From Acorus gramineus (Eukaryota; Streptophyta; Magnoliopsida; Acorales; Acoraceae): a stretch of 64,000 nt of DNA. The notes under the pieces are model-generated. The model saw only the letters and a list, made by a program, of their open reading frames with translations. It ran no database searches and was not told where the DNA came from. Of this stretch, positions 18,942-61,639 are shown one piece after another. The position numbers and the translations under genes were made by a program. The first letter of the stretch is position 1. Every line of letters starts with the position of its first letter. The stretch spans positions 26,881,385 to 26,945,384 of the forward strand of contig CM060850.1 in assembly GCA_030737835.1 (NCBI GenBank). Direction: 5' to 3'.

Positions 18942-18946
18942 ATAAC

Positions 18947-19135
18947 TGTTAAAGAATCTTTATTAGGATAATATTATATCTTTATTATCATTATTGTGAT
19001 ATTATTAGTTATTATTAGTTTCCTAGTTTTCCTAGATTCCTTATCTCTATTTTAAGATTTCCTCTATGTATCTATAAATAGAGCCTTTGGCTCCTCTAAT
19101 ATAATAATAATAATTCCCTTTTCTTTATTCTAACA
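18947..19135 (+). repeat. Left LTR (189 bp)
   Basis: Begins TGTTAAAGAATC and ends TTCTAACA. CTATAAATAGAGCC near 19072-19085 is a clear TATA-type signal, presumably the U3 promoter. Confidence 0.93.
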
Positions 19136-19147
19136 TGGTATCAGAGC
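19136..19147 (+). other. Primer-binding site TGGTATCAGAGC
   Basis: Twelve bases immediately after the left LTR, identical to the common plant copia PBS complementary to the 3' end of initiator methionine tRNA. Confidence 0.93.
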
Positions 19148-19193
19148 CTCCACCTTTGAAACCCTAGATATATAAAAGTTTTTATTCCCTCTT

Positions 19194-19230
19194 CCCCGCT
19201 CCAATTGAGATGTTTTCAATTGGAGCGGGG
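19194..19230 (+). promoter_or_regulatory. Perfect 15-bp stem-loop in the element leader
   Basis: CCCCGCTCCAATTGA (19194-19208) is exactly reverse-complementary to TCAATTGGAGCGGGG (19216-19230), with a 7-nt loop GATGTTT. It lies about 60 nt downstream of the PBS, where LTR elements commonly carry dimerisation and packaging structures. Such a role is inference; the stem itself is seen directly. Confidence 0.85.
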
Positions 19231-19298
19231 GAGGACTTTTGATACCCATATTTTCTTCGATTGCTTTGTTTGCTTCTCACGCGAACCCTATTTGTCTT

Positions 19299-20980
19299 TG
19301 CCGTCGTCGTGCCCTTGCCGTCGCCGTCGTGCTCTTGCCGTCGTCGTCGCCGTCGTGCCCTTGCCCTTGCCGTCGCCGTCGTGCCCTTGCCGTCGCTGTT
19401 GTCGTCGTGCCCTTGCCGTCGCCGTCGTGCCCTTGCCGTCGTCGTCGCCGTCGTGCCCTTGCCGTCGTCGCCGTCGTGCCCTTGCCGTCGTCGTCGTGCC
19501 CTTGCCGTCGTTGTTGCCGTCGTGCCCTTGCCGTCGTCGTCGTGCCCTTGCCGTCGTCGTCGCCGTCGTGCTTTTGCCGTCATCGTGCCCGTGTCTTTGC
19601 CGTCGCTGTTGTCGTCGTTCCCTTGCCGTCGCCGTCGCCGTCGTGCCCTTGCCGTCGCTGTCGTCGTCGTGCCCTTGCCGTCGCCGTCGTGCCCTTGCCG
19701 TCGTCGTGCCCGTGTCTTTGCCGTCGTCGTGCCCTTGCCGTCGTCGTCGCCGTCGTGCCCTTGCCGTCGCCGTCGTGCCCTTGCCGTCGCTGTTGTCGTC
19801 GTGCCCTTGCCGTCGCCGTCGTGCCCTTGCCGTCGCTGTTGTCGTCGTGCCCTTGCCGTCGCCGTCGTGCTCTTGCCGTCGTCGTCGCCGTCGCTGTTGC
19901 CCTTGCCCTTGTTCGTCGCCGTCGTGCCCTTGCCGTCGTCGTCGCCGTCGTGCCCTTGCCGTTGCCGTCGTGCTCTTGCCGTCGCCGTCGTGCCCTTGCC
20001 GTCGCCGTCGTGCCCTTTGCCGTCATCGTCGCCGTCGTGCCCTTGCCGTCGCCGTCGTGCCTTTGCCGTCGCTGTTGTCGTCGTGCCCTTGCCGTCGCCG
20101 TCGTGCCCTTGCCGTCGTCGTCGCCGTCGTGCCCTTGCCGTCGCTGTTGTCGTCGTGCCCTTGCCGTCGCCGTCGTGCCCTTGCCATCGTCGTCGCCGTC
20201 GTGCCCTTGCCGTCGTCGTGCCCTTGTCGTCGCCGTCGTGCCCTTGCCGTCGCCGTCGCCGTCGTGACCTTGCCGTCGTCGTGCCCGTGACTTTGCCGTC
20301 GTCGTGCCCTTGTCGTCGTCGTACCCTTGTCGTCGTGCCCGTGTCTTTGCCGTCGTCGTGCCCTTGCCGTTGTCGTGCCCTTGCCGTCGTCGTGCCCGTG
20401 TCTTTGCCATCGTCGTGTCCGTGTCTTTGCCGTCGTCGTCGCCATCGTGCCCTTGCCGTCGCTGTTGCCGTCGTGCCCTTGCCGTCGCCGTCGTGCTCTT
20501 GCCGTCGTCGTCGTCGTCGCTGTTGCCCTTGCCGTCGCCGTCGTGCCCTTGCCGTCGCCGCCGCCGTCGTGCCCTTGCCGTCGTCGTCGCCGTCGTGCCC
20601 TTGCCGTCGTCGTCGCCGTCGTGCCCTTGCCGTCGCTGTTGTCGTCGTGCCCTTGCCGTCGCCGTTGTGCTCTTGCCGTCGTCGTCGCCGTCGTGCCCTT
20701 GCCGTCGTCGTGCCCTTGCCGTCGCCGTCGCCGTCGTGCCCTTTCGTCGTCGCCGTCGTGCCCTTGCCGTCGTCGTGCCCGTGTCTTTGCCGTCGCTGTT
20801 GTCGTCGTGCCCTTGCCGTCGTCGTCGCAGTCGTGCCCTTGCCGTCGTCGTGCCCGTGTCTTTGCCGTCGTCGTGCCCGTGTCTTTGTCGTCGTCGTCGT
20901 GCCCTTGCCGTCGCCGTCGTCGTCGTGCCCTTGTCGTCGCTGTCGTGCCCTTGCCGTCGCCGTCGTCGTCGTGCCCTACC
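19299..20980 (+). repeat. GC-rich frame-rotating tandem array (GTGCCCTTGCCGTCG core)
   Basis: Tandem units of the form GTGCCCTTGCC plus two to six GTC/GCC/TTG-type triplets, so unit lengths are about 17, 20, 23, 26 and 29 bp. Every length is 2 modulo 3, so the reading frame shifts at each unit and any frame cycles through PLPSPS, CPCRRRR and ALAVAV. Stops are absent: three + frames stay open for long distances (up to ~600 codons), and minus frames read GHDGD, GTTATA and RARRRQ. A higher-order 26+20+26 block recurs, for example near 20065-20140 and 20138-20210. The array is extremely CpG-rich in an AT-rich region. I do not call a gene: the openness follows from the repeat arithmetic. Confidence 0.92.
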
Positions 20981-21156
20981 GAGAGACGTGCCTCTATTGT
21001 GCCCCTGCTGCGCATGCACACACCCCTGCCGCTTGCAGCACCCTTGCCGTGTTGTGCCATGCACCACCCTGTCGCCCGTAGCTGTCGCAAGCCTCTGCCA
21101 CCTTCTCATTTTTGTGCAAACTCTAAGGGTTCTACCTTTCAGAGTTTGGGAGGGGG

Positions 21157-21347
21157 TGTTAAAGAATCATTATTAGGATAATATTATATCTTTATTATCA
21201 TTATTGTGATATTATTAGTTATTATTAGTTTCCTAGTTTTCCTAGATTCCTTATCTGTATTTTAGGGTTTCCTTTATGTATCTATAAATAGAGCCCTTTG
21301 GCTCCTCTAATATAATAACAACAATTCCCCTTTTCTTTATTCTAACA
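21157..21347 (+). repeat. Right LTR (191 bp)
   Basis: Colinear with 18947-19135 from TGTTAAAGAATC to TTCTAACA. Preceded by the polypurine tract GGGAGGGGG at 21148-21156. Confidence 0.93.
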
Positions 21348-21352
21348 ATAAC

Positions 21353-23933: not shown

Positions 23934-24309
23934 GAGGCGAACCCACAAAGGCCAGATCGCATCACGAATACGCATGAGGGATGACGACTCCAGCCCCGTC
24001 CTCCTCCTCAGCTCCCGACCCACCCTGCCCTCCTCCACCCCTTCCCCACCACGCTCTCATTTGCACCAGCCCCACCCTTCCGCCCAGCCCTCCTCATACT
24101 CCTCTTGCACAACTATAAATGGATTTTTATAAGATCCATTTATTTAGGGGTGTCTAAAAGAACACAAGGGTGCAAATAGAAGCACCCGTATACCAGACCC
24201 TGTAAACAAGCTTGGTATTTCCAAGTCTTCCGATCCAAACCTGACTTGTCATCCTCTAAAACCTCTCCCTCTCTCTCACACAAAAACAAACCAATCCCAA
24301 CAAAAAAAA

Positions 24310-24915
24310 ATGAACCAACCAGAGCCGTCCATCGAGTCTCCCTGTCACCCGCCCTCGATCCTACGCCGTCTGATCGAGAAAGACATCTCCTTGTCCCTCC
24401 GCATCCACACCCTCTGCCAGCCCGTCCCACGGTGGCTCCTCAAAACCCTAGAAATCTCTGGCGACGGCCGCTTCTGGTTCCCCGTCCCGATCGCCCTCCT
24501 CTTCTCCCCCCTCCCCTCCTCCTCCGCCCAGGCCCGATCGATCCTAATCGGGCTCCTAATCGGATCCCTCCTCGACCTCGCCCTCGTCGGATCGATCAAG
24601 CACTTGATCCGCCGTCCCCGGCCCGTCTACAACAAGGGGATGCACCTCACCTTCGCCGTCGACCACTGGTCCTTCCCCAGCGGCCACTCCTCGCGCGTCT
24701 TCTTCATCGCCGCCTTCTTGTACCTCTCCCTCGTCTACGGCGACGGCGGCAATCTGCAGCCGTCGTTGTTCCTGGGGCTGGTCTTTGTTTGGTCCGCCGT
24801 GACGTCGGTTTCGAGGGTTTTGTTGGGGCGGCATTTCGCGTTGGACGTCTTCGCGGGGGCGGCTTTGGGTGTTTTCGAGGGTCTCGTTGTTTATCGTTTC
24901 CTGAAAAAAATTTGA
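24310..24915 (+). CDS. LPPB: Lipid phosphate phosphatase, PAP2 superfamily (LPP-beta type)
   Basis: Single exon, 201 aa. All three PAP2 signature motifs are present: K97-x6-R104-P105, P123-S124-G125-H126 and S168-R169-x5-H175-x3-D179, with the histidines and aspartate of the catalytic site. Hydrophobic segments around 55-70, 78-96, 128-143, 152-167 and 178-195 fit a compact multi-pass membrane enzyme. The family removes phosphate from phosphatidic acid, diacylglycerol pyrophosphate or prenyl/sphingoid phosphates; the beta-type plant proteins are short and intronless like this one. The actual substrate cannot be read from the sequence. The ATG follows a CT-rich, A-rich leader (CAACAAAAAAAAATGAACC) and is the first in frame. 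The codons are GC-rich compared with the flanks. A possible poly(A) signal AATAAA lies near 25059. Confidence 0.93.
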   Translation: MNQPEPSIESPCHPPSILRRLIEKDISLSLRIHTLCQPVPRWLLKTLEISGDGRFWFPVPIALLFSPLPSSSAQARSILIGLLIGSLLDLALVGSIKHLIRRPRPVYNKGMHLTFAVDHWSFPSGHSSRVFFIAAFLYLSLVYGDGGNLQPSLFLGLVFVWSAVTSVSRVLLGRHFALDVFAGAALGVFEGLVVYRFLKKI

Positions 24916-25794: not shown

Positions 25795-28700
25795 TCAATT
25801 CGGATTATGATCCGCTTGGTTCTGGCTCTGAGAAACAGAGATCAGATTCTTGTACAGCTCTGAACTTGCATACGCAAACTCTGACAATGCCCTGAACAGC
25901 TCCGGCAGGTGCGTCTTCAGACTCGCCAGCGACTTCTCCCTCACATGCTTGCACTGCTTCTGGTGCTCCTCCGCCTCCTCCTCCCACCTCTTCTTTGCCG
26001 CGTCCACCAGGTACATCCTTTCCGACAACGGGTCTTTCTGGCTCGTCGTCCCACCCTCCCCAGACTCCGCCCCGCCATCCTCCGATGGTGCATTGACCTT
26101 CCTCTGCTGGTACTTCATGTTCCAGTCCTCGAAAGCCCGGCTCTTCTTCACATACTCCTTCTTCACCTCCTCACACTTCTCCTTCTGCTTCGCCTCGTCC
26201 TGCTGGATGACCATTATCGTGTTCACGACTGCTGTGAAGCTGTGCATTGCGGACTTCGCGATCTCGTATGGTAACTTTTCGAGGTGCTCGTTCCAGGACT
26301 GTAGTAAGGGAAGGATTGGTGGGCGCTGGACTCGGGGAGGGGAGGAGACTTTCTCTTTGAGGCTGCTTTCGATGGGGACGAGGTTCAGTTTCAGCCAGTT
26401 ATTGAGGGATTGGATGTATTCCCTCTGGTGGGTGATGAGCTTCTCGAACTGGGAGCTCCATTCGCCGAGGACCTTGTATATCTGGTCAGTGCGATGGTGG
26501 TGCTGAATGCTGGTTTCTTTGGGGGAGTTGGCGGTGGTGACATGCCTGAGGTCCGACATCACGATGTCCAGCTGTTTTTTGTGGTGTGACCACATGGACT
26601 GCCACATTTTGGCCATCCTGGTTCACAAGCAATGGGTGTTGGTGACTGATGATTGAATATAAAAGCATTCAGTTGGTTGTGCAATCAGAATGATCAGATG
26701 GACAAAGTGTTAAATCATTCTTATATCAGAACAATATATCCTGGGTACATCATTCATGTAACCCTGTATGTCTACTATCAAATGCTTATTGAAATTCCTA
26801 AATACTCAATAAATATCAGGAAAGATAATGTCAAAAGAAGAGATATTATTGAATAATGAAAGGATCAATTAACCACATATAAGTTTTATAAATTGTTCAT
26901 CATTTTAACAAATGAATAATCAATAGAAGAAAGAGATGAGAACTAATATAAGCCACACTCATGCAATGAAAGAAACCCTGGCCTTGTGTTTGAAACTCAG
27001 ATTTCTATGCAACGCAATCAGATTAGGTAGTGGAATCACAAAATCTATAAATGCCAAGGTCCGACACAGCAACCACAAACTCTCAGAAAGGCCATGGAAG
27101 TGGATGCATAACATGAACACATGAGAAGAAGCATCCATGAAAAAACTTTGCAATAATGATCAACAAAAAGAACAACACTGCATATCTTCAGATTTAAGCA
27201 TGCCATGGAACTAGCTTCATACAAGGAACTCAAATATTAATTATATAAAATTTGACTATTACTTACAGGCACTGCAAATGCCACTTACCCATCTACAAGA
27301 TTCACGAGTTTTGGGTACAGCTGAGCATCACGTAAACGTTGTATTTCGGAAACTGTTGAATCCATGGATTGCATGTCGACAATGTATCTTGTATGCAAAT
27401 GACTTACTGCTGCTTTAGTTTTTTCTAACGCTTCAGGATTAGCGTTACGTTTCTTCTGCTTATTCAGTAAAGCAACCTTCCTTTGATACTCGATTTTCAT
27501 CAGCTCACCTGCCTATTTTCAGTAATTCAATCCACCATGTCAGTACGTGATAATAGCTATACTGAGAACATGTAAAGGGTAAAACAATAATTTGGAAAAA
27601 CAATATTCAGAGAGTACATATCAGTCAAGACTGTAACTTGTTAGCCAAACATACTATGATATAACTAAATTATTACACGGAAAAAGAAGAGAGTAGAAAA
27701 CATCAAATTATGATCTTGAAAGTGAATAAATGAAGTTGGAAGAAGGATAAGGGAGTACACATTAATCAAGATTGAAGACACTGTCAATTGTTAGCAAAAA
27801 AAAGAGTAGGGTCCAGATGTACGCAGGAACCTGGAATCTGCATGAAAAAGGAGAACTCTTAAATTAAGGGGCACTAGTTTGCAATATTTTCTGCCAGTCT
27901 ACAAGAAACCCTCCATTGCTTCCTAATTGATTTTTAAAAAAAGGATTCAGATTTTTTTTTCATTTCAACATGTTATCATGTTGTCAATTCATGCCTATCA
28001 GGCAAACATAATTTATCCTAAAAAGCAGAAGTTATATATTTAAAACATAAGGTGACAAACAAGGAGTAAAAGTGTCAATTGTACAGCATGGAGGTCAGGA
28101 AGCTTAATTAAATTAGAAATTAGAATGGACATGAAAATCATGGACTCATGGACATGTGATTCTAGACGAGTTGATGGGGAGAGGGTGTAATCTGAGCCTT
28201 AATTGTGTTAAAAATTCATTTCAACAATCTATGAACCATCAAAATATCCAATAGATCAACTTATATAATATTAAGAGACTTAACGAAGCATTTACTTGAA
28301 TGCGACAAAATGGTGAATGAGTAATATACTTTAAGTTGCATAAAGAGCTGCAGACAAAACAAATTTATCAAGTGAAATTTAACAAAGCATAACTATTTCT
28401 CTCTCCACATGAAGTATGCTGCTCCATGCAAATGAAGCACAAGAGAGGTAAAGCAGTAGTATAAGAGCAAATATGGAAGAGACACAGAGGGCCACTCTCC
28501 ACAACATGTCTCGTTTGCGCATTGCTGAGCAAGAATTCATGGATGCCCTCCAGTTTAATCAATAGCCATGGACTATATAAATATATCTACATGCCCACAT
28601 TTCAGTTGGCTTTTTTAAATACTCATTTAGTCAATCCAGTATTCTACTAAACATGATTATCATTTCATTTAGCATTTTTCAACATTTTCTTTTGATAAAT

Positions 28701-31187
28701 CCTTTCAAGATAGCACATTTCTTCTTAAATTTCACATCATAGTAAAAAGTTCATTCAGAGGATAGATGCTAATTTACAAGAACTGGAAATTACTCATTTA
28801 GGCAACCAGTTGTGGGTTGTACAGACAAATGAAAAGGAAATAATAAACGATCATAAGAACAAAAGTCCCCACCTTTACTTCATCATAAAGTTTCTTTTCC
28901 CATGCCAGCAGCTTATCCAACACAGTTGCAAGAGTTTCTGATTCGTCTGAATCAAAATCATCCTTCCCATCATCACCATTGGGTATGCCTCTGAATGATC
29001 TGTTCCATGTGATGACCCTCATGACTCTCGCAGAATGGTCAATGTGTCCTATAAATAATAATATATAAGTCAAGGGTAACACAAACATGACCCTCATACG
29101 TACATTACGTAAGGAAAAATTAATGGGACAGAAACTTAATTGAAGATACGAGTAATCGGAGTAACACAATTGAAATGAAGAATTATTTTAAAGTCCATGT
29201 AGGAAAACTATCGACATGGATGAAAATGATGGTTTGGTTTTGTTACCAAAATTTCATATGGTACTTCCCAATTTCCTTGATTGAACCAATGAAAATCGAC
29301 TAGCATATGATACATTGGTAACAGCAAGGATGTGATAAAATGCTCACATGCTATTCATTTCATTCCTTAAGAGTTAAATTGTTGAATATGCTCGTTCAAC
29401 AAAAACAAACAATATGTAAGATGACGACGTGTTAAACTTGACAGAATACGACATAGAGTGTCTTCAAATATTACTGCAATGCCTAGGCTTAACTTTTTAT
29501 CTCACCCAAAAGCTCAGACGTAGTATGATTACAGAGTTGCATAATAAAAGATAAGACACATGGTTACAGTACAAACATATCTTGCATGTAAAGGTGAATA
29601 GGTGATATTCTTAATCTGTCAAAATTTAATAACAGAGTGCACTGACATGCTAGGATAATGGAGACAATAGAACCATGATTGATTTTGAGCTAACCAAGCA
29701 GAGGACAACATAAGGAAGCTGCTTTCATTTTTTTACTAGGTACATATTTTTGAGCATCCTCCACTTCCCTGTTCTCCGATCATCCCTCGTGTCGTCATTT
29801 TTGTTCTCCTGCTACTGTCCCTTCCATTCTCCCATCGTTGTTTTCATTCTTCAATTCGGTTCGGTCTCCATTTTGAAGGAGTTTTATTTGTTTTAATTAA
29901 CTTTGGATCTGACATCCCTCGTATCCTTTGTGTTCAAGGGCTATCTATTAATAAGATCACATCTACATTTCCTTTAAAAAAAAATGAGGACTTCCCATGA
30001 GAGATCATCCATCCTAATAGTACTCTCACCTAAACATGCTTAACTTCGGAGTTCTGATCCAATACGGTGCATTCGTGCTGGTATGATCACACCCACAAAG
30101 TTAATACTTCTTATTCCACTATTTACAATCCCAAGTTGATCTTTTTACCGTGGCAATCAAGTACCATTTCTTCATCTTGTATGCCACATTCATTATCCAA
30201 ACATCTATGAACAATCAAACACCAGACACAGCATCACTCACCGCGGTTGTCGGCGAAGTTCGAGTGATAATGCAACCGATTCGCCTCGAGCATCTTGGAC
30301 ACCTCATGTGCGCTCTCCGATGCCTTGAGAAACTGGTCATCCAACTCGCGCAACACCTGCATCAGGCTTAAGCTCGACATCACCACCGCATTCCCCCTCT
30401 TCCCCCTCTCTGCCGACGTCACCGGCACCGCCGACGCCGACGCCGCGTGCTGGTGATGCACGTTCCCGTTACTCTGCTTCGGCCGCTTCGCGGCCGCCTT
30501 GTCCTCCGCCGCCTCCTGCGGGGGAGGCGGCGGCGGTGGGGGAGGCGTCTCCGGCACGGGCTCTACGAGCCGGATCTCCGGTTCTTCGAGGGAGGGAGGC
30601 GGCATGTCTTCATCGGCGCGGAAAAAGAAGTCCCACGCTTTGTTCTCCGGAGGGGGAGGAGGAGGCGGGGTTTGTCGCGAGTCCGGCTCCGACGGGGGCG
30701 GCGGGGGAGTCCGGGGAGGGGATTCGGCGGCGACAGCGGACTCCGCCTCCTCGTCTTCGTCATCGTCGTCCTCTTCTTGGATGGTCTGTGAGGGATCCGA
30801 CCTGAGATTGGATTTTGGGGGGAGGTCGGGCATGCTGATCGAGCGCTGGAGGGGGGCGGGGGAGAAATTTGGGAGGGGAGGGGGAGGCGGGAGGTTATCC
30901 AGGGGCGGCTGAGGGTGGTGGATGGAGGCGGCGGCGGCGGCGGCGGAGGAGGAGGAGGCAGCGGCAGCGGCGGGGGAGGATATGGAGGAGGGGTGGTTGG
31001 GGTCGATGATGACCTCGCCCTGGCCGTAGTCGCTGAGGGCGGCGCCGGTGTTTTTGAGGGAGACGGTGTACGAGGAGTGGGCGGCGGCGAAGGCGTTGCG
31101 GGCGGCGACGGCCTCGCGCATGTGGATCTTGCGGTCCTTGCAGCGGGCGACCGCCTCCTCCTCGAACTTCGATTGCGTGCAACCCAT
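25795..31187 (-). CDS. DUF630/DUF632 protein (MGCTQSK clade, bZIP-like/REL2/NRG2 family)
   Basis: Four exons on the minus strand: 31187-30242, 29048-28873, 27512-27289 and 26617-25795. All introns are GT-AG and phases close exactly to 722 codons plus TGA. Residues 1-59 (MGCTQSKFEEEAVARCKDRK, then KNTGAALSDYGQGE) are DUF630, with Gly2 and Cys3 giving a probable N-myristoylation/acylation signal. Residues ~60-265 are Ala/Pro/Ser-rich with poly-Pro runs and an acidic EEDDDDEDEE stretch. From ~275 (LMQVLRELDDQFLKASESA) to ~680 is the helical DUF632 region with coiled-coil character. Relatives include rice REL2 and Arabidopsis NRG2, which act in leaf rolling and nitrate signalling. This MGCTQSK start is not the NRG2 type, so I give no symbol. 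Intron 1 (1.19 kb) and intron 2 (1.36 kb) are large. Many GC-rich frames across exon 1 are shadows. Confidence 0.92.
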
Positions 31188-32394
31188 CTCCGCCGATCGA
31201 TTCACAAACGGATGAAATCACAAAACATGTCTCTGGATTTTTAGGGATCGAAAGTGTAGAGTGAGTGAACAGTGTGAGGAGAGTGAGTCTGTGTGTTTGT
31301 CTCTTTTTTTTTGGTTTCTTTTTTTGAAACTTTTTTTGAAAATCGAATATGAGGCAAAGCGTTGTAATTAACGGAACGGGACACTTTATTTTGATGCGGG
31401 ACACGACACGAGTTCGTGGTGTGTTTCGCTTTCATGGGCCCTTACCGTATATGACACGCGAGGCACAATCTATGTATCGTATGTTTCATCTCATATTAGT
31501 TATATATATATATATATATTACGATAAAGTTTTATATAATATTGTATTAATAAATAAATTATAATGAAGTATAGATTGGTCATGATCAATTTATAGTTCC
31601 TTTCTCTCAAACAACTGAGATTTTATATACATTCTTTAACCGGAATAACAAACGTTTTGTCTCTATGACTCAATCGTCTCAGGATGGGTCGTGGTCTATC
31701 CCCACAAGATCTCTTGATAACGGCGGATTTGACTAGTTTGACCAATAAACATTAAAGATTGTCAAACATAGGCGTGTGAAATAGGGATGTCAATGGATGG
31801 GATAGGGAGCGGGTATGTGATTTATATGAATATTGATTTTTTTTATTTAGTTTCATCAAATGTGGATACAGACATTGATATGGATACGTTTAAACATTAA
31901 GCACTAAGTACTAGTACGTTTGAAATTTGACATATTAAATACATGTATACAAATAGTAACGTTAACTAAGGCACTTTGCTTCTATAGGATGTAAAATTTA
32001 CTTTTGAGTCAAGAGGTCAAGAGCTAGGCCCATTAAAAGGTGAGATGAGATCGAATTCATAGTTTAGTCTCACATCATCAAATAAGAGAGGATGTCTAAT
32101 GTTTATACATAAACATATACATTACATGCGTACATGATGTATTTTAAAATTGTGTGTTTATGACAAAGCGTACATTAACCTGGAGCAGTATGATAGGATA
32201 GATATCCAAGCCTAATTGGGAACGTCTATGAGATCCATATGGGAGGGTTTTACCCATTTGTTTTTTTCATTTTTAGCTCAGTTATTTTCAACTTATAAGC
32301 TCTTTAAAATATACACCTCATTAGATGTTATTGTATATGATCCACCATTCTTTATTATAGATAAGGTATACGAATAAAAAAAAAATGAAAACAT
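31188..32394. other. Intergenic stretch upstream of the DUF630/632 gene
   Basis: The first ~200 bp are the gene's leader and promoter. A (TA)n tract lies at 31500-31519. A GGGATGTCAATGGATGGGAT patch near 31783 resembles wording seen in plant hAT-like repeats and at 18466. No second gene seen. Confidence 0.4.
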
Positions 32395-38950: not shown

Positions 38951-40416
38951 TTAAAGACATTTAAATTCTTATAAACATTTGAAAACCCATACAGATCACT
39001 ATTAAAATTCGGACAGACGTATAAGTTTCTGAAAACTAAAAAAAAAATAATTATCATTTCTGAGTTAAATTTTCATTTAAACTTAACAGAATATTCTCAT
39101 AATATTCTATCATATATAATTGTGTAGACATTGAAATTCTTATAAACAATCATAAAGACAAATGAGTCCCTGTAAAAGATAAAATTGCTCTTGAAAGACT
39201 TTTACATTAAATTGTGTACACGTTGCAGTTCCTATAAATAATCATAAAGACAAATTAGTCCCCGCAAAAAGTAAAATTGTCCTTGAAAGACTTTTACATT
39301 TAATTGAATAGATATTACAGTTCTTATAAACAATTGTAAAGACAAATTGGTCTATGTAAAATATAAAAATACCCCTGAAGGATTTTTACATTTAATTGTG
39401 TTGACATTGCAGTTCTTATAAACAATCATAAAGACAAATAATATAATTTATTTATTTATTTTTTCATTTTCAATCCTGTTGCTCACACTCTTTTAACCGA
39501 TAGAATGTATTCTTTTTACCTTTTTGTTTGTAGGGGAGTAAAAAAAGTGGCATAGGTTTATTAAAATTCTCTTTGCTAGGAATGTGAATAAACAAATTTT
39601 GTGGAAAATCATGTATATGTATTTCAAAGCAAACAAACACATTAAAGAAAAGAACATTATTCATTACTTCTTCAGGTGGAGTGTGACCGATATGATAAAA
39701 GATGAATAAATAAATAAATAAATTATATTATTTATTTTTATGATTGTTTATAAGGACTCCAATGTCTACACAATAAAATGTAAAAATCCTTCAGGGGCAT
39801 TTTTGTCTTTTACAGGGACCAATTTGTCTTTACGATTATTTATAAGGACTGTAATGTCTATCCAATTAAATATAAAAATATTTCAAGGGCAATTTTATCT
39901 TTTGCAGGGACTAACTTGTCTTTATGATTGTTTATAGGGACTGCAATGTGTACACAATTTAATGTAAAAGTCTTTCAGGAGCAATTTGTCTTTTGTAGGG
40001 ACTAATTTGTCTTTATGACTATTTATAAGGACTTCAATTTCTACACAATTATATGTGATGAAATTAAATATAAAAATATTTCAGGGGCAATTTTATCTTT
40101 TGCAGGGACTAATTTGTCTTTATGATTGTTTATGGGGACTGTAATGTGTACACAATTTAATGTAAAAGTTTTTCAGGGGCAATTTGTCTTTTGTAGGGGT
40201 TAATTTGTCTTTATGACTATTTATAAGAACTTCAATGTATACACAATTATATGTGATAGAATATTCTGAGAATATTTTGTTAAGTTTAAATGAAAATTTA
40301 ATTCAGGGATGATAATTGAGTTTTTGAGTTTTCAGGAACTTGTACATCTGTCCCAATTTTAGTAGGGACTTATATAGGTTTTTTTTTCATGTTTATAAGA
40401 ATTTAGATGTCTTTAA
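38951..40416. mobile_element. Foldback element with tandemly repeated inverted arms
   Basis: Left arm ~38951-39440 and right arm ~39725-40416 are inverted copies around a ~280-bp centre. Outer ends are TTAAAGACATTTAAATTCTT and, inverted, TTAAAGACATCTAAATTCTT. Each arm contains three or more tandem ~105-bp units made of the words TTATAAACAATCATAAAGAC, AAATTAGTCCCTGCAAAA, TTGCCCTTGAAAGAC and TTTTACATTTAATTGTGTA (the last three are consensus wording); the right arm holds more units. Flanks TCATTTTATAAT (38939-38950) and TCATTTATAAT (40417-40427) look like a TSD with a 1-bp T-run difference. No transposase. TSD length and structure suggest a MULE-type foldback; assignment is inference. It lies ~320 bp downstream of VAP27. 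Confidence 0.8.
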
Positions 40417-41634: not shown

Positions 41635-44600
41635 TCACGCATGACAACATACCTCCTCCTCCAACTCCACATCCCCACCAGCACCACCACCACCCAACCT
41701 GGCCTCCTTATAAACATACCACCTCGCGCAGACCAAATAAACCCCAAAATTCACAACACTCAACCCCGCCAACAACCAATAAAAGTCATACAACCTCCCC
41801 TCATTCAAATCATCCGCCAACCACCCCCCTCTCCCCGTCCCGGTCACCCTTTTCACCACCTCCACCAACACCGAACTCACAAAGAACCCCAACGAGAGCG
41901 TGCTCAAGAACAAGCCCGTGCTCATCGTCTTCATCCCCTTCGGACACTCCCTCAAGAAGAAGCCCAGCTGCCCAACGTACGTGAACGCCTCCCCCGCCCC
42001 GACCAGGAAAAACTGCGGCACGAGCCAGAACACACTCATGTTGTGGTGCTTGAGGCGGTTGATCTCGGTGAGGGCGGCGGCGGCCATGGAGAGGGCGGAG
42101 AGGACGAGACCGACGCCGATGCGTTGGAGGAGGGAGAGGCCGTGGGGGTTGTGGGTGAGGCGGCGGAGGAGGGGGACGAGGAGGCGGTCGTAGAAGGGGA
42201 CGGTGAGGAGGATGGAGGCGACGAAGAAGGCGGTGAGGGAGGCGGGGGGGATGGAGAAGGAGGAGGAGAGGTGGCGGTTCATGGTGGTGGCTTGGGCGAC
42301 GGAGAAGGTGGTCATCTGGGCGTAGATGGTCCAGAAGATGATGGTGGTGGCCCAGATTGGGAGCATTCGGAGAACCATCTTTACTTCTTCTACGTCGGTT
42401 TGGGTTGAGAGGGTCCATCGGGTGGTTGGGTCCGGAACCTTGATGGCTGCTCGGTCTAGGAATCTGGAAGGGAAAGCATATATATGTATGTGATGATCAT
42501 GGAATTAATACTAATGATGATGTTAAAGTTTTATGATTAATAATGACCTATCAATTAATGCATGAATCTAAAACACTAAATTTTTAATAATGATAGTTAT
42601 TCAAAGAAAACTAAATGAAAAATGTTATGGATAGTCCTTTTTTTTTGGATTTTGTATATGTTTTGATTTTTTTTTATGTATGTACTGACTAGTAAAATAC
42701 ATTATTTTATTGAAAAACAAATTCATACTATGTATTTTTTATGAATTAAATTCATATGTTTTTATGTTTTTTTATAGGGCATTTACTGAGATAATAAAAT
42801 ATAAACTACATTAAAAATTTACATATATAATTATATATTACATTAGTGGTCGCGATGATTGTAAATGATAATGTAAAAATGAATGTGAATAAATGCCCAT
42901 AGGCCCCATACTAGACTTGGGCACCTTGCCCATTATAGATCTACTTTTAGCTAGTTTGATATCTTAATACAATTCATTTTACGCTCGGATCAAAAGTTAT
43001 TACCAAAATTTAGATCTACATGAGTCATTGTTACTCATTTTCCTTGTATTTTCTTGCCGAATGACTCCTTTGGTGCCACCCGCAACAAGTATATATTAAT
43101 ATTATTAGTGGGTTGACTTTTCAATAATGTAAGGAGTGCATGTGCATAGGAATCACATGAGACATCAGAAAATCGTGTTTTTTTAACAAACCATAAAACT
43201 TAAAAAACTAAAATTCATATATATATATTTTTTAAAAAATTCATATATTTCCTACATAGAGACAAGAACCCATTAACGCCAAAAAAAATAAATAAATCTG
43301 CTACGGATAATATTTTAAATATGTTTTATTTTTAATTTTTTTCAAAAAATTCACAAGACTTTTGGTCTTCCAAGTAAAACTCGTGAACTCTGTTTATGTG
43401 TTGTTTTCAGGGGACCCAAAGATGAGCGGGCACAGGTTGTTTTTTCATTGGTAAGTCTGTTTTGTCTTAATATATGTTGTCGGGAGACCCAGTCGCAAAC
43501 TATCTCAACCGTTCGATCAAGATCCAACGGTAGTCGAGAATGGCCGGTGGTCGACCATTCGGATTTCATCCGTGTTTCGCGCCGATTAAAACAAATCACT
43601 GAAAAGGAGAGACTTGTACCTTTTTAATTTTATTTAACAGTAAAATAAGTGTTTAAAAAATCCGGTCATTCATTAAACTGTAAAAATAAACAGAATAAAA
43701 ATCATTCGTTTAATAATTGAATTAATTAGATTTAAATCCTGATATTATTATATAGTAAATATATTGTTTAGTATTATTTAAATTTTAAAATATGAAATAT
43801 TATCAAATTTTAATATCTTTTAAGTTTTACTTAACATCTTAGTATGATTTATTTTTTATTATCGATTTTCTGTACTCAAGTTTTGAAAGTAAATTAAATT
43901 AGAATTAGAGTGAGTGAAAATTTAACAGGTTGATCAAACTGGGTGAGGTTGTTTTTTTTTAAAAAAACGGGTTAACATTACCGCGAAGCATTATAATCAG
44001 TAGAGTTAGTTACTAGCAGTTATGAAGGGCAGCTGATCACCTGAACTGCTTAGTGTGTTGTAACCTCTGCTTCCGCGCCTTCTTCTTTCCTCCGCCGCCA
44101 CCCTCCGCCTCATCTATATCGTGCAGAAGCCACGGATCGGACGGCATTTCGAGCCCCCTCTTCAACCAGGCGGCGAAAACGACGGCGGCGATCTGTGTGA
44201 GCGGGCTCCCGACGAGGTTCTTGAACCGGTAGAACCTCGTCCCGGCCAAGAACACGGCGAGTCCTAAGAGGATGGCGACGGCGCAGATGCCGTACCCCCA
44301 CCGGCGGCCGAGGTTGTCCTGGACGTAGACGAGGATGGTGACGGCGAGGAGGGAGCCTATGCTGATGAAGAAGAAGAACCAGTTGAAGAACTTCACCATC
44401 TGAGACTTCTCGGAAGGGTTGGAGTCGTCGTACTGGTCGGAGCCGAAGCCGGAGACGCTCGATTTGAGGCCCCCGGTGCCGAGGGCCGTCATGTAGAGGG
44501 CGGTGTAGAGGATGGTGAGCTGCGTGTTGTCCGCCTTGATGCATGGGCCGGCTGCCTTGTCGCAAGGCGGAGGATGGAGGGAGGGGATGACGGTTGATAC

Positions 44601-45362
44601 TGTGAGTATCGTCACGCCCTGAATTTACAGTTAGAACTGAATTTCATCAGACAAAGTCATAAAAAATTAAGTCAGTCTAATGGAGACTGACATATGATAA
44701 TTTCATGTGTTAAACATGTGAGATATGATTATAATTGTTCTTTATGGCTCACCGTGGCTTGGACGGCGGTGAAGATGGCAATGGTTAAGTATCTGCAAAT
44801 GAATGAACAAAACAGAATGAGAAAACCTAGAGGGGGGGATGAAGGGGGTTTGGATTCTCTGTTTATTTATATTAAATTTAATTAATTTTTTAATCATCTA
44901 ATTCATTTATTTACAAAACAAACGTAAAAAAAACAAACAGATGATTGATCTATTCCCAAAATAAAATACCTTCCGAGGAAGGTGTCGGCGATGAAGCCGC
45001 CGAGGAGGCAGAGCATGAAAGAGGTGCCGAGGAAGTTGGTGACGGCGTTGGCGGAGACCGCATTGCCGAGGTGCATGGTGCCGGTCAGGTAGGTCACCAG
45101 GTTCACCGCGATGCCCAACGTGGTCAGCCTCTCGTTCAGTTCAACAACTGCATATAAATATTCATAAAACTAACATATTAGGTTTTATTATATAATGGAT
45201 CAAACATATATGAACAGTTTAGATGAACAGAAGTATATATGTATGAAGCATGCACGTACGGAGTATCATGGCGGCGCTCTTCCAGCCGCCAGTGGTGGAC
45301 CTCTTGGCCGGCCTCCCTTTGTAGTCCCAGGCATCTGTCAAAACCTTCCCTGAGTCTTCCAT
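41635..45362 (-). CDS. NPF6-type (NRT1/PTR) proton-coupled anion transporter, NPF6.4-like
   Basis: Five exons: 45362-45260, 45147-44970, 44792-44753 (40 nt), 44618-44041 and 42463-41635. All are GT-AG with phases closing on 575 codons plus TGA. The protein has the 12-helix POT architecture. The proton-coupling ExxER motif is E37-L-N-E40-R41. LGRYLTIAIFTA places Thr97 where NRT1.1 (NPF6.3) has the CIPK23-phosphorylated Thr101. Conserved NPF6 blocks include LVTYLTGTMHLGN, FLGTSFMLCLLGGFIADTFL, TALGTGGLKSSVSGFGSDQY, LRMLPIWAT and GAGEAFTYVGQLGFFLRECP. At the position of NRT1.1 His356, this protein has Tyr347 (WTIYAQMTTFSVAQ). In maize, a Tyr at this site goes with chloride preference and low nitrate affinity in NPF6.4, so nitrate specificity should not be assumed. 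The short exon 3 would be missed by ORF-based annotation. Plasma-membrane location is inferred from the family. Confidence 0.94.
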
Positions 45363-48679: not shown

Positions 48680-51600
48680 ATGAGAATGGAGTTGGAGTTG
48701 AATGATTCTTTAAATTGTCAGAATACTGAATTAGAATTAAGCAGTCATGTGAACGATTATAGTGAAGAAATCCAGTTGAATCCTCCTATCAATATTTTGA
48801 CGGAAGATGTAGAATTAAATGTTTCAGATGAAAATGTTGAAGATGCAAGAGAAGTGCCAAAAATTGATATGGAATTTGATGATGAAGATATAGCATATCA
48901 GTTCTATAATAAGTATGCTGAAAAATTAGGTTTTAGTATTCGTAAATCAAGTGTCAAGTTCAACTCTGAAAATGTTGTTACAAGTCGAAAATTTGTGTGT
49001 TCAAAGCATGGTTTTCGTGAGAATAAAAAGGAGAAAAAATGGTGAAAAACCAAGGCTAGAAACAAGAACCGGTTGTAATGCATTTAAGTCCATCAAAATT
49101 ACGCATACAGAGAGGTATTATGTAAGTGGATTTGAAGATAATCATAATCATAATCTGACAACTCCAAGCAAAATTCACATGTTGAGGTCACATAGGAGGT
49201 TATATGAATCTCAAGCTGCTCAGATAGATTTGTCAGATAGTTCAGGAATAGCCCCAAGATCTTCATCTGAACTAATCAACAAATAGGTTTGAGGTCGACA
49301 GAATTTAAATTTTTCTTATGTAGATTACAAAAATTACCTTCGTTCGAAACACATGAAAACAATGGAGAGGGGTGATGCAAAGGCTGTGCATGAGTATATG
49401 CGGAGAAAACAAGTTGAGAATCCATCATTTTTCTTTTTATATGCAAGTTGATGAAGATGATATAATAACTAATATTTTCTGAATAGATGTGAAATCTGTG
49501 GTAGATTATCACTTCTTTGGTGATGTAGTTTGTTTTGATACGACCTACAAAACAAATAGTTATGGCAGGCCATTCGCACCATTTATTGGTGTGAATCATC
49601 ACAAGCAAACTGTTATTTTTGGTGCAGCTTTGCTATATGATGAAACAACCCAAACTTTTGAATGGTTATTTGAAACCTTCAAGACCGCCATGTCAGGAAA
49701 GCAGCAAAAAACAATCTTGACAGACCAATGTGCAGCAATGAGTAAAGCAATAAGTAGCGTGTGGCCTAACACGGTTCATCGCCTTTGTGTGTGGCATATG
49801 TACCAGAATGCAGCGAAGCACTTGAATCATTTTTTCAAAAGTTCCAAACAATTTTCATCTGATTTTAGCAGATGTGTATATGATTATGAGGAAGAAGAAG
49901 AATTCTTATCAGCATGGGAAACAATGTTAAAAGTTCATAATCTTGAGGGTAACGAATGGTTGGCTAATTTGTTTAAAGAAAGAAAAAAGTGGGCTCTCGT
50001 TTATGAACGAGAGACATTTTGTGCGAATATGAAGAGTACTCAGCGAAGTGAGAGCTTAAACAGCATGCTCAAAAAGTATTTAAATTCAAAGTTGGATCTC
50101 TTGCGTTTCTTCGAGCATTATGAAAGAGTGGTGAATGATCGTCGATATGCAGAACTACAAGAAGATTTTCATGCAAATCAATGTGTCCCTACAATACCTC
50201 ATGTACGAATGCTAATGCAAGCTGCAAATGCTTACACCCCAGCAATTTTTGAAATATTTCGCAAAGAGTTTGAAATGGTTATGGATTACATCATATTTAA
50301 ATGTGATGAGGTTGGGACCATATCTAGTTATAAGGTCACTTTTGGAGAGAGGCAAAGAGATCATTTTGTTAAATTTGACTCATCAAATGACACAGCTTTC
50401 TGCACTTGTAAAAAATTTGAATTCGTCGGAATTCAATGTCGGCATGTGTTAAGGGCATTTGATGTTATGAATATCAAAGAACTCCCTCAGCAATACATTT
50501 TGAAAAGATGGACCAAGAATGCCAAAGCTGGACTAGTGAGAGATAGTCATGGAGTTGAAATTGATGAGGATCCCAAGTCACACTTAGCATATCGATATAA
50601 CTCATTGTGTCGCCTTTATAATAAAATCTTTGCAAGGGCTGCTGAAAGTTTAGAGGCATATAATCTTCTTGAAAGACAATCAGATCAAGTTATGGAGGCA
50701 GTGGAACAAATTATCAAAGGAAAATTTGATGAGAGCAGTGTGAAGAATAAAGACAAGGCGAATGAAACATCTCTAGTTGCCAGTGGTATAAAAAAAAAGG
50801 AAGGATGGCGTGGTAGTCGTAGACTTAAAAGCGGGCTAGAAATGAATAAACGACGAACAAACAGAAAAGGTTAAATTTGTATATAATGTTATTTTTTTAT
50901 TAAATGTTACGAATGATCTTTAGCTTATTTTTTCTTGATTAATTGCAGGTCCACATGATGATAATACAATTGCATCAAATGTTTCTAGATCACCTCAAGC
51001 CATAAGTATTGATCCCCTTCATCAACTAAATCTTGTTGAATCCCATGCTGGAATGAAACAACAAAAAAGAGGTATGTTTTTACTATACTTTTATCATTGT
51101 AGTATAGGATATTGTTTTTACTATATATTATAATGTTTTTTTCTTTAAATCATGTAACTTTGGATTATAGGACCATTTGATGATGCATCGGCTTCTTTGC
51201 GGATTAGTGAATCACCAGACAAGTCAAATAACAATTTCCCTTTTTCACATATTCCTAATATTTACAATCATGAGCTATTCCTTCCACCATCTCATTTTAT
51301 GGAGGTATTTTAAATTTTGTGTATATAAATTGTTACAAGAAGTTTAATTCTTTATTGAATTTTGTGTATATAAATTGTTACAACAAATATATGACATGTT
51401 TTACAGCAATCATGTGTTCCTAATATTCAATTTGGGAACAACTCTGCATCTTCACTTCTCGGCTTAATGCATGCTCCATTTTCTTCGTCTATTCCACTAC
51501 AAAGTTTTAATGATGTGAACCAATTTAATAAGGTAATTTTTGTTTTACTACATCATTTATATATATTGTTTAATCAGTTATCATTTGAATTAATTTACTT

Positions 51601-58558: not shown

Positions 58559-61487
58559 TTAAAGGCCAGCTTCTGATAGCCTTAGCCTATTCCAGTATTC
58601 ATCATCCCAGTTGTCGCGATATCCATCGATTTGAGAACTATAACACTCGAAAACAGCAAGGTACATATGTTCTTTCCATTTATCCAAGGGCGGGACACCG
58701 ACCTGAGCAGCAAGCCAATTCATGTAGTCGATCTGCCCCTCATCGGACAACATAATGACTTAATGAGAGTAAGAAGAGTAACTATATGAACCAAATTATG
58801 GAGATCGAAAATGTGATATAAACCTCGTATGGATGAAGCATGTGGGTGTGGTGCCTTGGCTTCCCGGTCGCTTCCATTTGCACGTAAAGTGCTTTAATGG
58901 ATGCCATCATTTCTTCTTCTGGTGGGAGCATCACTTTGGAGGACAAAACTTGGGCTATCCATTTGGACTGTAAATCTATCATAAGAAAAGGTATAACCTG
59001 GCATCACAAATGAAGATTCAGGAGATTAATTTTTAAAACAATCTTGTGAATAACAATCTTTGAACAGATTGACAAACCTTATTAGGTAAACCGATAAAGG
59101 AAATCGAAGGAGCAAGCTTTGGAGGAAAAACATGCTGATATAGAGGTCCAATGCGATTGTCATCAATGCTTATGATTCCATTTGTTTTAAGAAATGGAAA
59201 ACTGTACTTGTACCTTCAATAGAGAGACATAAACGATTAAGGAATACACAATTTACAAGAGAGCTAGGCAAACTCCAAAACACCAATTTATGATTCATTA
59301 AAAAAAAAAAAACTCAAGAAATTACTCTTAAGTATTTTTATTGTTTGCCAACAAAAAAGAAAAGAAAGAAAGAAGGAAACACATAAAAAATCTAAAGATT
59401 GAAAAAAATTAAGTTCGTCATGTACCCTGTACAATAAAAAATAACATCAGCATGAATTGAGGATCCATCATGGAAGGCCACCATACCATCTTCATAGACA
59501 CAACTTATCTACATAGGCCATAACCTAACAGTTAATGTCAGCAAATCACAACCAAAATATGTGATTATATTCTTCCTTTCTTCACTAGAATTATAGAATA
59601 TATTACCTCGGGAAGAATATATCATTAGGAACTCAGCGGAATGATGTGTATAGATTACAAACCAAAATAAGTTAATCATACCGATGAATGCTGCCATATG
59701 TTACTCTGCCCTTCTAACTTTGAGAATTCCACATCTGCGGATCTCGATGAAAGATGAACTTCTTTGGCCACCACTGAAATTTCTCTTGATATATCATGGG
59801 CACTTGTAGCACCTCCAATTAGAACCACAATCTGCCCCAATAAAGGATTATGATAAGCATAGCCGCCTCAATTCAAAAGAATGTCAATATCAAGTAATCT
59901 AAATTCTATAACACAAATGAATCAATGATACCATGGAATGTACGCTATTTATAACAACTACCTTGTATACTCTCCTCTGTGAGTTTATGAATGGAAAGTG
60001 AAGTCATGAAGCTAATTTTAGTGTTACATCATGCTAGCCCATATTTTTGTGCTTCTTGAAAGTCAAGAGACCAATCCTCTTCTCTTGATCTCCATCTATA
60101 TTGTTGGTTTATTTCCAAAAAGTTACTAAAGAACGAAAGAAATGGTGTAATTGAACTTTAACGACATTTAAAATCAATACATGATTTAGAAAAACAGAAC
60201 GATCTTCTAATAGGTGTGCCTTAAAGGGCTGATCTCCACTACAAAATGCTCTACCTAATTCAACCAAAGACTGGGGCCACCTATTCATTAACTGTCAATA
60301 CTCTGCCTATATTTGGCCCTCCCCATGCAGGAAACTTGGATGCAAAAAGGGTCGATGCGTCTCCCTCATCGGCTTCCTAATTGACTGGATGCAGTTCCTG
60401 TTAGCAGCTCTCAATTAAAAGCCTTAACAAACAAGCTTTTATGAAAAGTTTGTTGAGAGTAGCTTTTCCAGAACCGATTATTTTAGTTGATTTAGAGCAT
60501 AAGTTGTTTCTAAAAAAATGGTTCCAAGAGGCCTTAGTATCTCTCAATTACAATTACATGAATACTTATGAAAATAAAGTTTCTCTAAAACGAGATTCCA
60601 ATGACAAATCTAGGTCACACTACTGCTACCAGCTTTTTAATTTCTAAGACAACTACTGCTAAAGCTACCCACAACATATAAAATGCAAATAGACCTACAT
60701 ATTGAACTCAATCTAGTTCTTCTATACAGCAAAATATTTCAAATTCAATCAGACACTTTGCGATTCGACAAAATGCATAGAGAGTAGAGTACCTGATCTC
60801 GAAACGGTTCGGGCACGCGATAATTGTGACTATGTATTTGCTTCCCGGGCCACTTATCAATCCCTGCAGTCACATTATCATTCTTTCATAAGTTCTTCAA
60901 TTCAATTCCATATAACAAGCGAATACACACAAATTACATTATCACATCTATCAAATCCCAACCGTCGGATCCAACTCACCCGGAACATCAGCGACCCTCG
61001 ATACACTATGATGTCCATTACACACCACCACCGCCTCAAATGTCTCCACCACCACCGCCTTCGCCTCCAAAGCCTCCACGATCCACTCGTCGGCCCGCGG
61101 GCCCGGCCCGACGGAGACGACCTCTGATCCGAACCGGACCCGCTCGGGCAGCCCGAAATCCCGGGCGAAACCCTCGATGAAGGACAGGACCTCCTCGTGG
61201 GACGGGAAGGCGCCGGACGGTGGCCCGGCCGGGAATGGGTAGTCGGAGAAGCCCATGAGTGGGCGAGGGAGGTTGGCCCGGAGGGAGTGGTAGAGGCTGC
61301 CGTGGACCCTGGACAGGGCCGCGTCGAGCCCGGTCGGGTCGGACTCGGTCCGTTCGTCGTAGACCCACGTGCCGCCGACGTGGCGGGATTTCTCGAAGAC
61401 GGTGACGTGGTGGCCCTCGCTGAGGAGGGATCGGGCCGCGGTCAGGCCCGCAACGCCCGCGCCTATCACCGCCACCTTACGTGACAT
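58559..61487 (-). CDS. Flavin-containing monooxygenase, FMO GS-OX-like
   Basis: Seven exons: 61487-60980, 60863-60793, 59831-59682, 59508-59426, 59213-59078, 58997-58824 and 58732-58559. All are GT-AG; phases sum to 431 codons plus TAA. FAD-binding Rossmann motif G9-A-G11-V-A-G14 (KVAVIGAGVAGLTAARSL) and downstream GGTWVYD. The FMO signature is W174-x-G176-x3-H180-x3-Y184 (WPGKQIHSHNY), with Trp at the first position. The NADPH-binding segment is IGGATSAHDISREI (199-204 G-G-A-T-S-A) and the TGY motif lies in YCTGYKYSFPFL (270-272). The family S-oxygenates thioethers; glucosinolate substrates are known in Brassicaceae, and I cannot infer the substrate here. The ATG at 61487 is chosen because the next in-frame codon upstream is GTG, not ATG. 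The first exon is markedly GC-rich. A decayed duplicate of its start lies upstream (62816). Confidence 0.93.
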
Positions 61488-61639
61488 GTTTTTCACCTTT
61501 TGAAAAAAAAAAAAATGATAATTTGGGGAGCTTTGGATTCTGTCGATTTTTGACGGTCAGACAGAGAAGATTATTGAAAGACTCGTAGTATTTCGTTTAA
61601 ACGGAGACATAAATTATTTATGTTTTTTTTTTTTTAATA

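Follow-up and report, generated by a model that had tools for sequence, protein, structure and literature searches.

TRIMs have short LTRs, no coding domains and a size limit of about 1 kb. Gene fragments are described in TRIMs of the soybean GmaRetroS15 type, which comprise 30 elements in seven subfamilies of 1,172–1,449 bp (Gao et al. 2016, PMC4717578); internal arrays in TRIMs are not described in the part of that report consulted here. The maize LTR element Bs1 is reported to hold segments of three host genes and to have given rise to a transcribed and translated chimeric gene (PMC13317346). Ogre/Tat LTR elements carry hypervariable 3′ tandem repeats, for which a strand-transfer hypothesis has been proposed, and Ogres are described as Ty3/gypsy elements with gag-pol upstream of the array (PMC7004042). 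In the Veju TRIM and in BARE-2, new internal or LTR sequence is attributed to abnormal template switching (PMC13317346).

The window analysed here, 64,000 nucleotides of Acorus gramineus DNA, contains a non-coding LTR element of 2,401 bp (18947–21347) that belongs to a family with parallels to these systems. As far as the sources consulted describe them, gene-bearing TRIMs share with the present family LTRs, the absence of coding domains, a 5-bp target-site duplication (TSD) and exon-only fragments, some from more than two genes (PMC4717578). They differ from it in that the element here measures 2.4 kb, up to four tandem arrays occur and the arrays lie at module borders. Unlike that of Bs1 as described, the cargo here is fragmentary, lies in both orientations and adjoins arrays; intron-less fragments of several host genes occur in sister copies, and the three ORFs of the window copy have no host-gene match in Pfam. 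Unlike Ogres as described, the small element here has a copia-type primer binding site (PBS) and an internal region that consists almost entirely of arrays, and no coding domain was found in it. Veju and BARE-2 are described as origins of single new forms, whereas exchange here seems recurrent across the family. Literature searches, largely at the level of listings, returned no family of this description, and within the literature searched it is new for one family to have four arrays, no shared unit order and, recurrently, cargo spliced from several genes.

Capture of host exons by LTR elements is known from scattered cases. In this young family, copies whose LTRs are nearly identical differ in arrays, 3′ halves and cargo, so that their sequences reveal how capture and exchange proceed. 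The family opens the strand-transfer hypothesis for tandem arrays in retrotransposons to direct testing, and it supplies a plant genome with chimeras of several spliced genes.

A non-coding LTR element filled by a tandem array

The window copy has what is expected of an LTR retrotransposon, namely direct LTRs with TG..CA ends, a TSD, a PBS and a polypurine tract (PPT):

18942–18946, no strand: 5′ TSD ATAAC, the same five bases as at 21348–21352
18947–19135, + strand: 5′ LTR, 189 bp, TG..CA ends; 40 scored genomic LTR+PBS matches, 94–100%
19136–19148, + strand: PBS TGGTATCAGAGCC; part of the LTR–PBS junction pattern sought genome-wide
19194–19230, + strand: 15-bp hairpin directly 3′ of the PBS, from the fold of 19136–19250
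19299–20977, + strand: array 1, units GTGCCCTTGCC(GTC/GCC/GCTGTT)n, mostly 14–26 nt, nearly A-free
20978–21156, + strand: 3′ internal region (INT3), which holds array-like CCCTTGCCGTGTTGTGCC and ends in the PPT; 97–98% identity in copies L032 and L033
21148–21156, + strand: PPT GGGAGGGGG, G-rich; part of the PPT–LTR junction pattern sought genome-wide
21157–21347, + strand: 3′ LTR, 191 bp
21348–21352, no strand: 3′ TSD ATAAC

The two LTRs show 7 mismatches in 189 aligned positions and two 1-nt gaps. Array 1 begins about 160 nt past the PBS and, in expanded form, fills the internal region; arrays 2–4 of other copies (see below) and any cargo are absent. Three ORFs tested against Pfam matched no family, and no gag/pol was found among them. 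These observations confirm the structure given in the original prediction, that of a small non-coding LTR element with a large, CpG-dense, frame-shifting tandem array. We take the PBS to be of the initiator-Met tRNA type and Ty1-copia-like; a Ty1-copia affinity is suggested by PBS type only.

The array (19299–20980) is 69% GC, with 318 CpG and a CpG observed/expected ratio of 1.61. The + strand of 19299–20977 has 9 A's in 1,679 nt, and five of the nine look, by context, like CG-to-CA changes, from which methylation of the array would be predicted. Tandem Repeats Finder reported periods of 6, 20, 26 and 46, and 80-nt internal repeats are present within the array.

The array had been proposed to consist of units whose lengths all equal 2 modulo 3, such that the frame rotates with each unit, several frames stay open throughout and no gain or loss of units can ever create a stop. 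The length relation stands as a tendency and fails as a rule. Intervals between exact GTGCCCTTG connectors equal 2 modulo 3 in 36 of 48 cases in the window copy (7 equal 1 and 5 equal 0) and in 368 of 430 cases over 24 copies including it (44 equal 1 and 18 equal 0); the deviating intervals may each span two or three units whose connector has changed. Long ORFs exist, of up to 612 codons from stop to stop, and the six frames over 19299–20977 hold 1, 0, 1, 1, 1 and 0 stops (4 in total); four frames are thus interrupted once each, and the arrays of other copies likewise contain stops. We found a mean of 3.2 stops in all in 500 dinucleotide shuffles of the array, 82% of which had no more than the observed 4, whereas GC-matched random sequences (n = 200, A = T) had about 11 stops per frame. 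All six frames have few stops because the + strand is nearly A-free, and stop codons need A on the + strand or T on the − strand. The open frames are therefore a by-product of A-poor composition, not of unit length. Frame rotation has no visible meaning, and we rejected it as a coding design since shuffles give as few stops and other arrays contain stops.

The family and its arrays

Searching the assembly (398.6 Mb) with an LTR+PBS query gave 877 candidate places, and all 40 that were scored were 94–100% identical. The LTR–PBS junction pattern, with up to 2 mismatches, occurred 985 times in the genome against 0 for the control, and the PPT–LTR junction pattern, at the same threshold, 258 times against 2. 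We examined 30 copies, namely the window copy and its 29 best LTR matches, which are not a random sample; LTR identity between these best matches had a median of 98.4%, and several pairs were 100% identical. The vocabulary of array 1 was present in 24 of the 30, the window copy counted, within the stretch read (about 1.5 kb per copy for L021, L022 and L024–L030); L022 has array 1 further downstream, outside this count. Array 1 is a module of the whole family, and its length and unit order differ between copies. The LTR-based genome search proposed with the original prediction thus found a family, and the two ways in which that prediction might have failed did not come about: the array was seen within the stretch read in 23 of the 29 other copies, so that a one-off expansion is rejected, and the number of independent loci whose arrays differ speaks against an artefact of assembly.

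Both LTRs were found in 19 copies, with match lengths of 189–192 bp in most and 0–7 LTR differences per copy. An exact 5-bp TSD flanks eleven of them and is missing from eight (L034, L039–L042, L044, L045 and L048). Among the eight, L042 has a truncated LTR, the flanks of L039 and L041 match at 4 of 5 TSD bases, and L041 and L044 have zero LTR differences yet no exact TSD. In L039, L040, L041, L044 and L045 the sequences flanking the two LTRs differ, and these five may have arisen by exchange between chromosomal copies. L034 and L048 each follow directly on the PPT of another copy, with which they share an LTR, a tandem arrangement that resembles the TA-TRIMs described in PMC4717578.

Exact LTR–PBS junctions, taken from 96 of the 100 listed PBS places on contigs C1–C4, paired with an exact PPT within 6 kb in 43 of 96 cases, leaving 53 of 96 with no partner under these patterns. 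The internal regions of the 43 exact pairs measure 820–2270 nt in 42 and 3880 nt in one (median 1750), and L023 has an internal region of 406 nt with an exact TSD. We conclude that these are recently active, non-autonomous LTR retrotransposons. The short LTRs and absence of coding domains are those of TRIMs; we call the window element TRIM-like because its 2,401 bp, like most of these internal regions, does not fit the TRIM size limit.

A search by array pointed to the same elements. Of 295 candidate array places, the top 40 were scored. Of these, 31 are on contigs with listed PPTs, and in 27 of the 31 an exact PPT follows within 3.5 kb; the other 9 lie on contigs without listed PPTs. The check used 45 of the 100 listed PPT places, and the full list adds none for the four misses, two of which (C1:13834050 and C4:6117382) have an LTR–PBS junction just upstream. 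Five LTR–PBS junctions without an exact PPT, read by eye, yielded no autonomous partner: L059 and L061 carry A-poor arrays, and in the other three neither array 1 nor any frame resembling gag was seen. In L061 (G000:C3:5976830-5977530), a different A-poor array of the GCCCTGCCAACCCTGCC type follows the same leader hairpin, which suggests that arrays may arise repeatedly in the family.

Nine of the 30 copies (L034, L038, L040–L044, L046 and L049) share a four-array layout, which was followed along the whole of L038 and recognised in the other eight from segments in common. After the leader, which comes in three 5′ subtypes (A, B and C) among the nine, follow array 1, array 2, array 3, about 90 nt of unique sequence, array 4 and a conserved 3′ end:

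Array 2: CCCGGATC/GCATCCGACCCGGGC type
Array 3: GCCGCCTCCGGCC type
Array 4: units of about 126 bp

The leader fold of 19136–19250 has z = −6.45. We aligned the hairpin in 27 of the 30 copies, the stretch being deleted or different in L012, L013 and L023, and found 95.5% of cells paired over 12 distinct rows, compared with 31–57% when the alignment was slid. Two pairs are changed on both sides, a count that 233 of 500 shuffles also reach. The hairpin is a possible packaging or dimerisation signal. In the predicted fold, GGTATCA of the PBS (19137–19143) pairs with TGATACC (19240–19246); the PBS would be closed by a stem with the hairpin on top.

Host-gene cargo and exchange at the arrays

Sister copies carry pieces of host genes. 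We chose 20 ORFs by eye from 11 copies, and 16 of them had Pfam matches, all to families of host genes: HSP70, histone, Bax inhibitor, RNA 3′ cyclase, EF-hand, Serinc, DER1, Nop52, CASP and, weakly, TFIIA. The TFIIA match (L048) and the histone match (L037) fall under the Pfam gathering score, and the 9 of 11 copies with a host family represent a biased rate, the ORFs being hand-picked. The cargo is spliced and multi-genic, its lack of introns being judged from alignment gaps. The Bax-inhibitor cargo of L022 consists of five pieces of one C4 gene at 97–99% identity, and none of the 293, 82, 1240 and 93 nt that separate the five exons of the parent gene is in the cargo. Just upstream of it, at G000:C9:4320781-4321110, lies a tandem duplication whose copies are spaced about 164 bp apart; it is also present at C32:5856729-5857037. 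L033 holds Derlin cargo in four pieces, with gaps of 602 and 72 nt removed and 24 nt of unmatched cargo between two of them, together with a piece of a C6 gene from which 966 nt are removed and a Nop52 piece from which 51 nt are removed. L037 combines pieces of at least five unlinked places at 95–99% identity, with one at 88% owing to a 33-nt deletion, and carries histone H2B in antisense. Cargo in both sense and antisense suggests that switching may have occurred in both strand syntheses.

The same cargo is found across leader subtypes, for example in L028 (subtype C), L029 (A) and L036 (B), at 97–99% identity. The C66 and C9 copies have Bax-inhibitor cargo in common at 99%. Reading by eye, we found that the C66 copy continues through the cargo to a stop codon, array 4 and the standard 3′ end, without array 1. 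In the C9 copy the cargo is cut shorter, and at GCCCTTATC, within the 3′ region, the sequence switches to array 1 (about 745 nt); next comes a 178-type 3′ end different from that of the C66 copy. L037 and L056 similarly have Serinc cargo in common (98% over 329 nt); L056 goes on with about 104 nt of array 1 (5 connectors) and arrays 3–4, and L037 with about 816 nt of array 1 (33 connectors) and then the 3′ end. In both sister pairs compared, array content differs together with the 3′ half, and the two 3′ halves have been exchanged at array-like seeds. L021 and L025 have 869 nt in common at 95%, after which one continues into HSP70 and the other into array 1.

Apparent homology at array-to-3′ junctions took the form of CCCTTGCCGTG in L050 and TGCC(A) in L045. 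Nine such junctions were scored with exact 14-mers, which makes negative overlaps uninformative: these two gave useful overlaps, five were negative, the value of 2 came from L023, and the 8 of L031 reflects a match to itself.

To compare the arrays themselves we used a unit-order test on 19 of the 24 arrays, leaving out L048 and arrays below 300 nt; short arrays give it little power. Unit order is not shared: 2 of 171 pairs reached p ≤ 0.01 and 10 of 171 reached p ≤ 0.05, which is about the chance level. As a positive control, the test detected 19 of 19 arrays with 20% of units replaced, 11 of 19 with 40% and 8 of 19 with 50%. The strongest pair was the window copy with L033 (p 0.005), both of which have the 178-nt INT3, and some shared unit order may remain between these two.

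Probable template switching and its rivals

We consider it probable that array 1 has been produced and reshuffled by template switching in reverse transcription, and that it acts as a junction for module exchange. The family would retain its cis signals (LTRs, PBS, leader hairpin and PPT), and the middle would be freely exchangeable. Template switching by reverse transcriptase, both within a single RNA and from one co-packaged RNA to another, would generate the array and would also occur there preferentially. Any unit could pair with any other, so that each switch would alter array length and unit order. A switch in the array could fuse the 5′ half from one element RNA with the 3′ half from a second, and loose switching via short homologies would also take in spliced host mRNAs. 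We infer that the exchange would take place during reverse transcription, with a helper element.

The main rival is exchange in chromosomal DNA. Array 1 would then be an ordinary minisatellite inside a retrotransposon and would change through slippage during replication. Chromosomal copies would swap modules by unequal exchange or gene conversion, and gene capture would be a separate process. Short units of high GC are prone to slippage, the window array contains the 80-nt internal repeats, and Ogre-derived arrays are reported to expand in chromosomes (PMC7004042). The lack of an exact TSD in 8 of 19 two-LTR copies is what inter-copy exchange would leave; it counts against template switching and gives some weight to chromosomal exchange. 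It also counts against template switching that DNA-level exchange could likewise shuffle the arrays and swap 3′ halves. However, copies with about 98% identity in their LTRs have lost any common unit order, array and 3′ content varies even among the 11 of 19 copies whose TSDs are intact, and exchange of chromosomal DNA leaves the spliced cargo unexplained. On balance we regard this rival as rather unlikely.

Neutral filler and size stuffer, roles that the original prediction had offered, are possible for the array. Less probable than chromosomal exchange is a selected array, maintained as filler that gives the RNA a length fit for packaging or as a GC-rich structured block for chromatin or RNA export. 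The array is present in 24 of 30 copies, and internal regions stay within 820–2270 nt in 42 of 43 exact pairs despite very different contents; this range, however, comes from pairing restricted to less than 6 kb and exact patterns, with 53 of 96 junctions unpaired, and L023 moved with an internal region of 406 nt and an exact TSD.

That the array encodes a repetitive Arg/Cys/Pro-rich peptide guarded against frameshifts by frame rotation is very improbable, since the long ORFs that favour it are set against equally stop-poor dinucleotide shuffles, stops in other copies' arrays and the absence of any domain. We give hardly any credence to an assembly artefact either: GC-rich tandem arrays are hard to assemble, but array lengths and orders differ over many independent loci, 11 of 19 with exact TSDs.

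A stronger version, which we put forward tentatively and regard as rather unlikely, is that the array may be an evolved strand-transfer pad: a self-similar low-complexity block kept in the family for switching in any register between whichever two RNAs are co-packaged. The family may then act as a cDNA-shuffling machine that builds chimeras of spliced host exons and distributes them over the genome.

Elsewhere in the window, 38982–40382 is an inverted-repeat element of about 1.4 kb with arms built of 92-bp tandem units (for example, 39182–39490 and 39679–39987, 88% complementary), which looks like a foldback or MULE-type element. An ORF at 49483–50871 contains MULE transposase and SWIM domains and is presumably FAR1-like. 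Host gene pieces lie at 24148–24912, 25798–26622, 30237–31217, 41638–42504, 44040–44624 and 60954–61556; these six comprise PAP2, DUF632, DUF630/DUF632, two POT/PTR2 pieces and an FMO-like piece.
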